Below are positions 38,254-42,849 of a stretch of DNA of 64,000 nucleotides, in pieces (within the stretch, counting starts at the first letter, position 1; each line of letters starts with the position of its first letter). The stretch is from assembly GCF_022919135.1 (NCBI RefSeq), contig NZ_CP095049.1:310001-374000 (forward strand). Direction: 5' to 3'. Below the pieces are notes generated by a model. The model had not been told where the DNA came from and did no database searches. It saw only the letters and a list, made by a program, of their open reading frames with translations. The translations under genes and the position numbers were made by a program. The DNA is from Hymenobacter cellulosivorans. Lineage in GTDB: Bacteria; Bacteroidota; Bacteroidia; Cytophagales; Hymenobacteraceae.

Positions 38254-38286
38254 AAACGCCGCCCGAGCTTCGGGCGGCGTTTTTTT
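38254..38286 (+). terminator. Intrinsic terminator after the LysM gene
   Basis: The stem AACGCCGCCCG/CGGGCGGCGTT with a 4-nt loop is followed by T6. Confidence 0.92.
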
Positions 38287-38328
38287 CTGCCTGCTTTTTT
38301 GGAAAAGCAAAAAAACTTTTCGCAGAAT

Positions 38329-38358
38329 TTGGTCTTCTCAATTCCATCTGTACATTTG
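38329..38358 (+). promoter_or_regulatory. Promoter of the methionine (met) operon
   Basis: TTG (38329-38331), 19 bp, then TACATTTG (38351-38358), an exact -7 box. Transcription should start near 38365, about 40 nt before the riboswitch. Confidence 0.75.
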
Positions 38359-38405: not shown

Positions 38406-38518
38406 AATTTATACAGAAGCGGCGAGAGAACAGGCTCCCTGACCCGCTGGCAACCTTCATCTGATGAAAGGTGCCAATTCCTGCCCGCCCGGCGTAAGGC
38501 CCGCGGGAGCTATAAGTC
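38406..38518 (+). promoter_or_regulatory. SAM-I (S-box) riboswitch
   Basis: The conserved S-box core is present: GGCAACC (38449 onward), a P3 helix, then AAGGTGCCAATTCCTGC (from 38467), followed by a GC-rich P4 hairpin. The closing P1 helix pairs TTTATA (38408-38413) with TATAAG (38511-38516). The RNA binds S-adenosylmethionine and should lower expression of metY-metX-hom when SAM is abundant. No terminator with a U-tract follows directly. P1 ends only about 10 nt before the ATG of the poly-Cys ORF, so control may act on translation of that ORF, which is inference. Confidence 0.88.
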
Positions 38519-38525
38519 GAGTACC

Positions 38526-38690
38526 ATGGAAAACAACCCCGCTTCCGCTTTCATCTCCCCATCCGCTGCAGCCGCCTCTGTGCCCGCTGCCTCGCCGATG
38601 GGTTTGCGCGTTTTCGCCGCTGGGTTTTCGCCCCGGCTGGCCGCACGAATGCGAATGTGCAGTTGGTCCACGTGTTGTTGCTGTTGCTAG
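38526..38690 (+). CDS. Leader ORF with C-terminal penta-cysteine tract
   Basis: A 54-codon ORF begins 8 nt after the last S-box base and ends 210 bp before metY. Residues 1-24 are Ala/Ser/Pro-rich (MENNPASAFISPSAAAASVP). The end reads RMRMCSWSTCCCCC, i.e. Cys45 and Cys50-54, coded TGT TGT TGC TGT TGC before TAG. It has no signal peptide or domain. The position between a SAM sensor and a sulfhydrylase gene, and the Cys run at the very end, suggest a cis-acting leader peptide at which ribosomes slow when Cys-tRNA is low. That is inference. Actinobacterial sulfur genes are known to use poly-Cys leader ORFs as attenuators, an analogy only. Alternatively it is chance; translation is not proven. 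Confidence 0.6.
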   Translation: MENNPASAFISPSAAAASVPAASPMGLRVFAAGFSPRLAARMRMCSWSTCCCCC

Positions 38691-38823
38691 CCCACTGAGC
38701 GCCTAGCTTCTCCCCTTTCTCCTTTTTTCTGGCTTTCCCACCGTGTGCGGCCACTTGCTGGTGCACTTCGGCGCAGGGTCTGGCCGGGCTCCGCTGCAGC
38801 CTTTTGGGGCTCCGGATGCCTTC

Positions 38824-38852
38824 CTGGTTGCCGTCGCCATGACTCCAACCAG
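38824..38852 (+). promoter_or_regulatory. Hairpin between the poly-Cys ORF and metY
   Basis: CTGGTTG (38824-38830) pairs perfectly with CAACCAG (38846-38852) around a 15-nt loop, about 50 nt before the metY start. It might be part of an attenuation switch linked to the leader ORF. No T-tract follows. Confidence 0.3.
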
Positions 38853-38888
38853 CTGACAATCTGAAACTTCATTTCAAAGACTTCTTAA

Positions 38889-40286
<1,398 letters not shown>

Positions 40287-40550: not shown

Positions 40551-41582
40551 ATGAATCAGCCTCGGCTTTTGAACCTTCCGGCGGGACTCGTGCTCGAAAG
40601 TGGCGCGACGCTGGCTCCGGTGCAGATAGCCTACCACACCTTCGGCACGCTCAACGAAGCCCGAGACAATGTGGTATGGGTGTGCCATGCCCTGACGGCC
40701 AATGCCGACGTGCTCAGCTGGTGGACCGGCCTGTTTGGCTCCGGCCATTACTTCGACCCAGCCGACTGGTTTATCGTGTGCGCCAATATTTTGGGCTCGT
40801 GCTACGGCAGCACCGGCCCGCTGACGCCCGTTGGGGAAGCCGCCGAGCCCCTGTACCAGCAGTTTCCGCTGGTCACGATTCGGGACCTGGCGGCGGCGCA
40901 CGAGGCTCTGCGGCTGGAGTTGGGCCTAGCGAAAATCCATACTCTGATTGGGGGCTCGTTGGGCGGACAGCAGGCTTTGGAATGGGCTATTCAGCGGCCC
41001 GAGGTATTTGCCAATCTGGTGGTGCTGGCTACCAATGCTCAACACTCGCCCTGGGGCATTGCCTTCAATGAGGCCCAGCGGCTGGCCATTTTCGCCGACG
41101 TTACTTACCACGAAGGCACGCCCAGCGGTGGGCAGCGGGGCATGAAAGCCGCCCGGGCTACAGCCCTGCTTAGCTACCGCAGCTACGACGCCTACGGCCG
41201 CACCCAGGCCGAAACCGACCCCGACCGGCTCGACGACTTTCGGGCCAGTTCCTACCAGCAGCACCAGGGCGACAAACTCGTGGCCCGCTTCAATGCCTAC
41301 AGCTACGTGGCGTTGTCGCGCACGATGGATACGCACCACGTGGGCCGGGGCCGCGGCAGCCTGGCCGCCGCGCTAAGCCAGATTCGGGCCCGGACGCTGG
41401 TGCTGGGCATCAGCTCCGACGTGCTGTTTCCGCCCGCTGAGCAGCAGCTGTTAGCCCGCCACATTCCGGGCGCCACTTATGCCGAAATGGATTCCCAGTT
41501 CGGCCACGACGGTTTTTTAATCGAAACCGCCCAGATAACGCAGTTTTTAGAACAATTCTATGTCCCCAGTCTCGTCCATTAA
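40551..41582 (+). CDS. metX: Homoserine O-acetyltransferase
   Basis: A 343-aa alpha/beta-hydrolase-fold enzyme that acetylates homoserine with acetyl-CoA to give the MetY substrate. The conserved start PAGLVLESGATLAPVQIAYHTFGTLN, CHALTANADV, the nucleophile Ser136 in GGSLGGQQALEWA, Asp in GISSDVLFPP and His in QFGHDGFLIE complete the triad. The last 23 bases overlap the hom start, so the two genes are translationally coupled. It is part of the SAM-riboswitch operon. Acetyl rather than succinyl specificity is inferred from pairing with MetY. Confidence 0.94.
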   Translation: MNQPRLLNLPAGLVLESGATLAPVQIAYHTFGTLNEARDNVVWVCHALTANADVLSWWTGLFGSGHYFDPADWFIVCANILGSCYGSTGPLTPVGEAAEPLYQQFPLVTIRDLAAAHEALRLELGLAKIHTLIGGSLGGQQALEWAIQRPEVFANLVVLATNAQHSPWGIAFNEAQRLAIFADVTYHEGTPSGGQRGMKAARATALLSYRSYDAYGRTQAETDPDRLDDFRASSYQQHQGDKLVARFNAYSYVALSRTMDTHHVGRGRGSLAAALSQIRARTLVLGISSDVLFPPAEQQLLARHIPGATYAEMDSQFGHDGFLIETAQITQFLEQFYVPSLVH

Positions 41583-42849
41583 CCCCGCGGTATCGGCTAT
41601 TGCTGCCTCCCTGATAACGGCCAGCGCCCCGCTGCGCATTGGCCTGATCGGCTTTGGCTGCGTCGGCCAGGGCCTCTATGAGATTCTGCAGCGCCTACCC
41701 GGCTTTGGGGCCGAAGTACGGCGCATCGCCGTGAAAAACCCGGCCAAGCTCCGTACCCTGCCCGCCGAGGCCTTCAGCTTCCACGCCGACGAGCTGCTGC
41801 AGGATCCCGGGTTGGACGTGCTGGTCGAAGTCATTGACGACGCGGCCGAGGCGTTCCGCTTGGTGAGCACCGCGTTGCGGCAGGGCCGACAGGTTGTGAC
41901 GGCCAATAAAGCCATGGTAGCCCAGCACCTGCCCGAGCTGGTGGCCTTGCAGCGTGAGTTTGGCGGCATCCTGCTGTATGAAGCCGCCGTGTGCGGCAGC
42001 ATCCCGATTATCCGGACGCTGGACGCGCATTTCGGACAGGAACCACTGCGTAGCGTGAGCGGAATTTTCAACGGCTCTTCGAACTACGTGCTGACGCGCA
42101 TGGGCCAGGATGGCTCGGAATATGCCGTGGCACTAGCCGAAGCCCAGCAGAAAGGCTTTGCCGAAACCGACCCTACCTTGGACATGGCCGCCTTCGACCC
42201 TCGCTCGAAAGCCGTAATTCTGGCGGCTCATGCTTACGGCGTGTTTCTGCAGCCCGAGCAGGTGCTGAACCTGGGCATCGAAAACGTCAGCGCCACCGAC
42301 ATTGGCTACGCGGCCGTAGCCGGCCAGAAGATTAAGGTCGTGGCCGGGCTATACTTGCTGCCCAACAACCAGCTCAGCGTGCTAGTTACTCCGCAGTTTG
42401 TCGACCCGACGTCCTCGCTCTACACCGTGGATGATGAGTTCAACGGCGTGGTTATCGAGGCGGAGTTTGCTGGCACCCAGTTTCTGCAGGGCCGGGGCGC
42501 AGGCGGACACCCGACCGGCTCAGCCGTGCTTTCCGACATTGCGGCCTTGCGCAACCAGCAGCGCTACGCCTATCCCAAGCTGGGCACCGAGCCGCTAACC
42601 TACACCACCGACCTGGAAATTGAAATCTACCTGCGGACCGACGATGAGCTGATTCTAGACCAACTGGGCTTTACCGATATTACCGAGGAAGCCGACGAGG
42701 ACAGTTATATCGTGGGCTACGTGCCGCTCGATGCCCTGCTTCAGCACCGGGACCGGCTACGCCAAGCCGGGGCCTTCGTGGCCCGCACCGGCAACGTACG
42801 GCCCGCAACACACTCCGTTGAGGCCCTGGCCCTGGCGACGAGTGAATGA
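41560..42849 (+). CDS. hom: Homoserine dehydrogenase
   Basis: A 429-aa enzyme reducing aspartate semialdehyde to homoserine with NAD(P)H. The Rossmann motif GLIGFGCVGQGL follows a 25-residue leader. VVTANKAMVAQH, YEAAVCGSIPIIRTL, GIFNGSSNYVLTRM, FAETDPTLDMAAFD and catalytic-site residues in GRGAGGHPTGSAVLSDI are all present. It is monofunctional (no aspartokinase domain). A degenerate ACT-like C-terminus (340-420) may bind an effector. It overlaps metX by 23 nt and ends the operon. A dedicated hom in a methionine operon may favour flux to methionine over threonine. Confidence 0.94.
   Translation: MSPVSSINPAVSAIAASLITASAPLRIGLIGFGCVGQGLYEILQRLPGFGAEVRRIAVKNPAKLRTLPAEAFSFHADELLQDPGLDVLVEVIDDAAEAFRLVSTALRQGRQVVTANKAMVAQHLPELVALQREFGGILLYEAAVCGSIPIIRTLDAHFGQEPLRSVSGIFNGSSNYVLTRMGQDGSEYAVALAEAQQKGFAETDPTLDMAAFDPRSKAVILAAHAYGVFLQPEQVLNLGIENVSATDIGYAAVAGQKIKVVAGLYLLPNNQLSVLVTPQFVDPTSSLYTVDDEFNGVVIEAEFAGTQFLQGRGAGGHPTGSAVLSDIAALRNQQRYAYPKLGTEPLTYTTDLEIEIYLRTDDELILDQLGFTDITEEADEDSYIVGYVPLDALLQHRDRLRQAGAFVARTGNVRPATHSVEALALATSE

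Follow-up and report, generated by a model that had tools for sequence, protein, structure and literature searches.

A leader ORF with a Met/Cys-rich terminus directly behind a SAM-I riboswitch suggests serial regulation of metY in Hymenobacter and other Bacteroidota

In Hymenobacter, a short open reading frame (ORF) ending in a run of Cys codons is located between a SAM-I riboswitch (S-box) and metY, and this arrangement is probably a serial regulator that responds first to SAM and subsequently to the supply of Met and Cys. Comparison of the sequences shows the ORF itself, its conservation, its spacing behind the P1 helix of the predicted aptamer, the Met/Cys terminus and the association with particular genes. 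From these features we infer SAM binding, P1-controlled initiation on the leader, stalling of the ribosome, the direction in which metY responds and how the signal reaches it.

The window, the whole stretch of 64,000 nucleotides analyzed here, is part of a Hymenobacter genome of 6.1 Mb, and all features given for it are on the + strand. The aptamer (RF00162) at 38406..38518 was the sole Rfam match at the gathering threshold within these 64 kb. It covered model positions 1-108 with 66.6 bits compared to a gathering score of 44.4, in agreement with the sequence and structure of a SAM-I aptamer, and the 3' strand of its P1 helix was at about 38511-38518. The leader ORF extended from an ATG to a TAG stop codon at 38526..38690 and comprised 54 codons (MENN...RMRMCSWSTCCCCC*), with Cys at codons 45 and 50-54. 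Codons 41-45 (38646..38660) encode Arg-Met-Arg-Met-Cys, with the Met residues as part of the proposed sensor, and the five Cys codons 50-54 (38673..38687) are a mixture of TGT and TGC. With these consecutive terminal Cys codons in a short ORF before sulfur genes, it has the features of a poly-Cys leader. The initial annotation had described this ORF between riboswitch and metY correctly, as well as the 210 nt from its end to the sulfhydrylase gene, which is the distance from the stop codon to the metY ATG; the ORF starts indeed close to P1, but 7 nt beyond the last base of the aptamer instead of the 8 nt claimed. By eye, a tentative, weak 5-bp hairpin (GCTAG...CTAGC, 38686..38707) spans the stop codon, and the spacer up to metY (38691..38900) is rich in pyrimidines. 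The metY product (38901..40286) belongs to the O-acetylhomoserine sulfhydrylase/cysteine synthase family (TIGR01326, 675.7 bits, cut-off 495.1). It is followed by a metX-like gene for a homoserine O-acetyltransferase (40551..41582; best model TIGR01392 with 353.9 bits, under the cut-off of 500) and a homoserine dehydrogenase gene (41560..42849; NF004976 with 299 bits, exceeding the cut-off of 205).

A promoter-like site, TTTG-N19-TACATTTG, was matched by pattern at 38328..38358, in a form which we take to be the Bacteroidota −33/−7 consensus. This site indicates that aptamer and leader ORF are probably part of one transcript. About 170 nt, S-box included, would separate the predicted promoter from the ORF, a distance that argues against a leaderless ORF at the 5' end of the transcript as in the mycobacterial type. 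The pattern occurred twice in the window compared to 0.58 expected matches, and at least twice in 10 of 100 shuffles, so that it is weak evidence when taken alone. In the genome of the host, each of the five S-boxes with a leader has a TAnnTTTG motif that begins 38 to 55 nt 5' of the aptamer, two of them in the form of the full pattern, and in 24 of 79 loci of the genus the full pattern is positioned −198 to −209 from the leader ATG.

Conservation within Hymenobacter was evaluated in the 98 of 101 genomes in which metY was matched with an E-value of 1e-50 or lower; L104 was counted among these loci although its metY match contains in-frame stops. Rfam identified the S-box in all 40 loci scanned, and in the remaining 58 its core motif was matched by a regular expression. 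An ORF behind the S-box was present at 98 of 98 loci, and at 94 of them at least three Cys were among the last 15 residues; 79 of the 94 passed an automatic filter and 15 were added by reading. The other four, L041, L049, L052 and L103, kept the ORF with a weaker terminus, which is RMRMCWGC(W/R)M in the first three and a degraded LRMRPRRDCCRRR in L103. At the 17 loci read against P1, the leader ATG was at +7 to +10; for those beyond the 17, the order of S-box, ORF and metY alone was read. In the 79 leaders, pN/pS was 0.46 for the terminal columns and 0.72 for the body, compared to 0.94 and 0.96 in the two shifted frames, and the value of the body shows weak constraint outside of the putative sensor. 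The terminal 15 codons of these leaders contain 275 TGT and 216 TGC codons, and an RMRM motif is present in 63 of the 79. Met accounts for 149 of 1,580 residues (9.4%) in the last 20 positions and for 24 of 2,473 (1.0%) in the body. The spacer from the leader stop codon to metY had a median length of 214 nt with a range of 159-312 nt at the 79 loci. As a separate observation, an additional ORF with a length of about 220-270 codons, which resembles a peroxiredoxin by eye, is situated between leader and metY in 15 of the 98 loci (L031, L044, L048, L054, L063, L082, L086, L087, L091, L093, L095, L097, L098, L102 and L103) and appears split into two pieces in L077; a 75-residue piece of this insert gave no Pfam match.

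The enrichment of Met next to Cys at the terminus is not a peculiarity of ORFs chosen for their Cys content. In 45 short ORFs picked by position alone, with no criterion of composition, Cys made up 31.7% of the terminus and 1.5% of the body, and Met 6.3% and 0.9%. Among the seven residues with the smallest p values, Cys and Met were the only ones that were enriched, the others being depleted; since the sequences are related, there are fewer independent events than these p values imply. As a control, 269 further ATG ORFs from these loci were compared, in which Cys was not among the seven and the bias of Met was twofold. Outside of Hymenobacter, 24 of 29 leaders from named species, with five near-duplicates dropped, contained 40.6% Cys at the terminus compared to 2.4% in the body, and 14.2% compared to 0.3% Met. 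The enrichment of both residues lets the terminus look as if built for the reading of both sulfur amino acids and, as in a classical attenuator, the leader ORF contains the cognate Cys and Met codons.

The host genome possesses six S-boxes, and the genes behind them were checked with Pfam. A Cys-rich ORF follows five of the six; the exception is the S-box of metH, which has no Cys-rich ORF and the metH start 71 nt past P1. The four leaders not belonging to metY start with GTG 9-10 nt after P1 and are rich in Cys at the end. The leader of cysH reads VKTLSNARTLSPTSAALQPGCCGMMCCRCC, that of an ATP-grasp gene VDTANN...GCCWPLAGAGCCC and that of an amino-acid permease gene VDCF...GCCCCC; a gene for a TonB-dependent receptor is preceded by VKAF...GCCGMMCCAVCMPTLG, which failed the strict run test. 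At the S-boxes of these GTG leaders (L001, L002, L003 and L004), the stretch from the promoter to the aptamer contains a common 5' segment, CAATTCTTT...CAAAGGATTG, possibly an additional hairpin that the metY copy does not have. Receptors of the TonB-dependent/SusC-like type behind S-box and Cys-rich leader were observed twice, in L003 of the host by Pfam and in L227 of another family by eye, which suggests regulated uptake of a sulfur compound.

Cys codons accumulated by chance or by slippage of repeats in a non-coding leader would also yield such a run, as TGY repeats can expand by slippage. Genome-wide statements on the host rest on a pattern search, in which TGYTGYTGYTGYTRR matched 33 times compared to 10 times for the reversed control, and most of the 33 matches were not at the stop of a short ORF. 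Among the 30 of the 33 matches that were examined, only the metY and permease leaders combined an ATG or GTG start and more than 12 codons with four Cys codons before the stop, and two further ORFs with this end, of 19 and 31 codons, had TTG starts. The mixture of TGT and TGC codons and the interleaved Met codons argue against slippage. Further arguments came from a set of 134 S-boxes of the phylum, six from the host genome, 88 from the same order and 40 from the same class, which comprised the best-scoring among the matches listed plus the own genome, with L137 (short) and L164 (own genus) dropped. A strict Cys run, defined as a run inside the last 15 residues of a short ORF starting near P1, was present at 37 of these 134 S-boxes among the matches listed, compared to a mean of 0.09 and a maximum of 2 such ORFs when these stretches were dinucleotide-shuffled 200 times. 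This distribution, together with 0 of 40 before metH among the matches listed, makes an origin by chance or slippage negligibly probable.

The runs were linked to the gene downstream. Among the matches listed, a strict Cys run preceded metY in 27 of 47, cysH in 3 of 4, a permease gene in 1 of 1 and metX in 1 of 20 cases, no metB-like gene (0 of 7), and it was found at 5 of 15 S-boxes with no gene assigned. They were likewise linked to the P1 3' strand, which distinguishes two kinds of S-boxes: strict runs occurred at 33 of 66 TATA-type, 3 of 65 GATA-type and 1 of 3 other S-boxes among the matches listed. An ATG or GTG ORF that starts at +7 to +12 and comprises 12 codons or more was present behind 55 of 66 TATA-type compared to 3 of 65 GATA-type S-boxes among the matches listed (p 6.9e-22), and the P1 5' strand of the three GATA-type exceptions (L147, L153 and L154) is TATA-like. 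In three units, L231, L287 and L288, a long gene itself, metX in L231 and L288, starts +9 to +11 after P1, indicating that the leader takes the position that a gene under direct control by the S-box would have.

The distribution across families was uneven. Before metY, and among the matches listed, family f5 had an ORF at 7 of 7 S-boxes and a Cys run at 1 of 7, f11 an ORF at 3 of 4 and a Cys run at 0 of 4, and f26 neither of them (0 of 4); at all S-boxes of f26 among the matches listed, a Cys-run ORF was absent (0 of 20). In the six f5 loci with an ORF at +7 to +10 before metY and no Cys run (L146, L148, L159, L206, L238 and L239), either the sensor may have been lost or a different residue may be sensed. 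In the other classes of the phylum, a Cys-run ORF was found at 0 of 27 S-boxes, with 27 of 28 loci being long enough. The leader of L226 in family f4, which is followed by a nitrite/sulfite reductase-like gene, ends in seven Cys. A set of 80 metY loci from named species was reduced to 36 by leaving out 44 from Hymenobacter, many of which duplicated genomes of the genus set. An S-box was present in 29 of these 36, with RF00162 alone reported by Rfam, and in 29 of 29 it was followed by an ORF at +6 to +11. The Cys-run filter was passed by 19 of the 36 loci. Ten further loci with an S-box comprised L362, which ends in MCCCYCCC and was missed by the filter, and nine with mixed Met and Cys ends such as MQLMNCMCSRIY or RMCMCICYC. 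The predicted combination of an S-box with a Cys-rich leader is thus recurrent in several Bacteroidota families.

An ORF that is conserved and adjoins a riboswitch may alternatively encode a functional Cys-rich small protein, e.g., for binding of metals or thiols, which would be made at low SAM; the authors describing the Mbox upstream ORF (uORF) of Mycobacterium tuberculosis (Mtb) suggest a peptide function in the available text (PMC12810186). Leaders of different families, however, have the Met/Cys terminus in common but bodies that appear unrelated, it is the terminus that is under the strongest constraint, and a single word-based query with the window peptide revealed no relatives in a set of 5.8 billion proteins. 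A small protein is consequently regarded as very improbable.

In the serial model, the readout of the leader would be transmitted by the RNA around and behind the stop codon. Two scans of the window leader revealed no canonical intrinsic terminator with a good T-tract. A perfect hairpin at 38257-38287, followed by a T7 tract and located 3' of the LysM-domain gene upstream, had escaped the first scan and was recovered by the second scan, the better test. The best hairpin of the spacer (38777-38821, −18.7 kcal/mol) is followed only by TTCCTGGTT, and the window leader revealed no intrinsic terminator with a competing antiterminator as in a classical attenuator. The spacers of the genus yielded no structure that could be aligned (consensus energy 0), and the consensus folds of the individual clades disagreed.

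Signals of folding were nevertheless present, at positions that differed between the sets of leaders. In 27 leaders of the genus, 45-nt segments from −9 of the stop had a mean folding z of −1.47. In 37 cross-family leaders, z was −1.46 at +27 past the stop, compared to −0.30 in the genus at this position and −0.23 in 48 S-boxes without a leader, and in the named set the signal was at 0 and +45 from the stop. Terminator-like hairpins of the 37 leaders had a mean of −6.0 kcal/mol compared to −4.0 kcal/mol in shuffled sequences, with a mean z of −0.91; z was below −1 in 15 and above +1 in 6 leaders, and 6, including that of the window, had no such hairpin. Predicted pairing between the Cys codons and the sequence downstream exceeded that of shuffles only weakly, with mean z values of −0.52 and −0.63 next to the stop.

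A more defined structure was predicted for leaders of the Pedobacter type, with three successive hairpins in 26 matches, 24 of them distinct (L374-L392 and L349, L350, L357, L360, L364, L367 and L370). Of 151 genomes from one family, 19 had a single match to the model each, and all 19 are of one genus, which is called Pedobacter here because most of the named model sequences are from Pedobacter (L360 is filed as Flavobacteriaceae bacterium). The sensor codons are in the predicted 5' arm of hairpin 1, the CUUCC/GGAAG stem of hairpin 2 is nearly invariant, and hairpin 3 has changes on both sides in 5 of 6 pairs; in helix 1, which contains the sensor codons, 0 pairs were changed on both sides. 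For the whole model, 28 cells were changed on both sides compared to 12.0 in shuffles and the covariation score was 0.178 compared to 0.116, both reached by 0 of 500 shuffles, the alignment being fitted to the model itself. Two of five measures were not clearly above the shuffles, the number of pairs changed on both sides (7 compared to 5.4, reached by 47 of 500) and that of further pair types (18 compared to 17.5). These comparisons show a predicted covarying hairpin downstream of the leader in the Pedobacter type. The sequences CTTCC, GGAAGG and a TACGC tail were strongly conserved in this element, more than pairing would require, which suggests that a factor binds there or that a tertiary contact is formed. 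The model did not match the window (best 3.8 bits, E 1). Eight sequences from Mucilaginibacter gave a similar prediction of three hairpins with different sequences, with both-side changes in 5 of 26 pairs and the sensor codons in the loop and 3' arm of predicted hairpin 1.

These structures bear on the question of how a delayed ribosome could affect metY. Plain ribosome attenuation by alternative hairpins, acting on transcription or hiding the start of metY, with the S-box as an independent second regulator, would agree with the position of the sensor codons within the first predicted hairpin of the Pedobacter-type and Mucilaginibacter leaders, with the difference in folding between leaders and leaderless S-boxes, and with the stability of the terminator-like hairpins. 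By eye, however, no U-tract follows the hairpins of Pedobacter and Mucilaginibacter, and independent sensors would leave the spacing of 6-12 nt between P1 and the start codon unexplained. This explanation is considered unlikely. A variant of the serial model differs in the last step and employs Rho, which would load onto the C-rich leader when this is untranslated or vacated and would terminate transcription, and a ribosome waiting on the Cys codons close to the stop would shield the RNA. The genome contains a rho gene, the window leader is without a canonical terminator, and there are precedents in the available texts on mycobacterial poly-Cys leaders, where Seliverstov et al. (PMC1262725) suggested Rho, and on Mbox-uORF-Rho control by D'Halluin et al. 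(PMC12810186). At the 79 genus loci, the leader body contains 37% C and 25% G and the 80 nt past the stop 39% C and 24% G, but composition does not discriminate because metY itself is no poorer in C over its first 60 nt (42% C, 19% G). The three-hairpin predictions and the terminator-like hairpins suggest, moreover, a role of RNA folding in other genera. A relay by Rho is possible, albeit rather doubtful.

The preferred serial model would operate as follows. The transcript would begin just 5' of the S-box. With plentiful SAM, the aptamer would close P1, the 3' strand of which overlaps the ribosome entry site of the leader ORF; the leader would remain untranslated and metY off. At low SAM, the leader would be translated, and the pace of the ribosome across the terminal Met and Cys codons would be the readout of charged tRNA-Met and tRNA-Cys. 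A delayed ribosome would alter RNA folding, or the access of Rho, at or behind the stop, leading to expression of metY, and an undelayed ribosome would not, so that expression would need low SAM plus scarce sulfur amino acids. S-boxes before met genes usually switch these genes off at high SAM. Provided that P1 is closed by SAM and the leader thereby blocked, translation of the leader must help metY, and we infer from this that a delay at the Met/Cys codons raises expression further. The sensors seem to be arranged in series and not in parallel since the leader starts 6-12 nt past P1, where some genomes place metX itself. The initial annotation had considered the terminal Cys run improbable by chance, which the shuffles bear out, and the comparative evidence strongly supports its conserved Cys-sensing leader peptide in combination with an S-box before sulfur genes, with the run kept in the genus and constraint in the frame of the ORF. 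From its two-input control by SAM and Cys, the combination is supported at the level of sequence, while the enrichment of Met and the serial layout were absent from this claim; methionine, the scope of several operons and the geometry of P1 and start codon had been overlooked.

Poly-Cys leaders of mycobacterial cys operons are likewise short ORFs with a Cys run near the stop, before sulfur genes. The title of a 2020 paper by Canestrari et al. reportedly calls these ORFs leaderless. In the available text of PMC1262725, they are also without a conserved terminator and no preceding riboswitch is mentioned, and the available part of PMC13236596 describes such cases as translation attenuation. The Hymenobacter leader differs in being located behind a SAM aptamer, in the additional Met codons and in its occurrence in Bacteroidota. 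The Mbox-rv1805A uORF (PMC12810186) and the B12 riboswitch-uORF pairs (PMC11260477) of Mtb similarly combine a riboswitch leader with a short translated uORF that affects the downstream gene; the available texts do not describe these uORFs as amino-acid sensors, and the ligands are Mg2+ and B12. For direct SAM-I riboswitches, the accessible text of Barrick and Breaker 2007 (PMC2258182) places the ribosome-binding site within the 3' side of P1 and predicts direct control of initiation, again with P1 adjoining the start region, whereas the slot in the Bacteroidota S-boxes usually holds a short leader and not an enzyme gene. The SAM-I riboswitch of Xanthomonas campestris, which senses uncharged initiator tRNA according to the available text of PMC7270179, also joins SAM with a second signal of amino-acid supply, mainly at translation, but there tRNA-fMet binds directly to the expression platform; the terms "leader peptide" and "uORF" do not occur in the main text. 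The cysS uORF motif uORFC-8-2 (PMC8632094) has tandem Cys codons in a uORF as well but is from Rhodobacterales and has a consensus terminal U-run, with no riboswitch described in the available text. No published description of an S-box followed by a Cys/Met leader was recognized in the full-text literature, with subscription journals mostly outside the search. As far as this literature goes, the system would be the first known case in which a riboswitch controls access to a leader peptide that senses amino acids.

It seems somewhat likely that these leaders form a regulon across several Bacteroidota families, in which one RNA would read three sulfur metabolites serially, with SAM at the gate and tRNA-Met and tRNA-Cys at the readout, and relay the result by hairpins to genes for sulfate assimilation, homocysteine synthesis and uptake. 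If true, two classic mechanisms of RNA control would be joined in series, and this would explain the two geometries of S-boxes, with a P1-adjacent ORF before metY and cysH and none before metH. The serial model predicts small translated ORFs that the protein search did not find, and many seemingly empty 5' leaders would become testable sensors in culturable Hymenobacter, Pedobacter and Mucilaginibacter.
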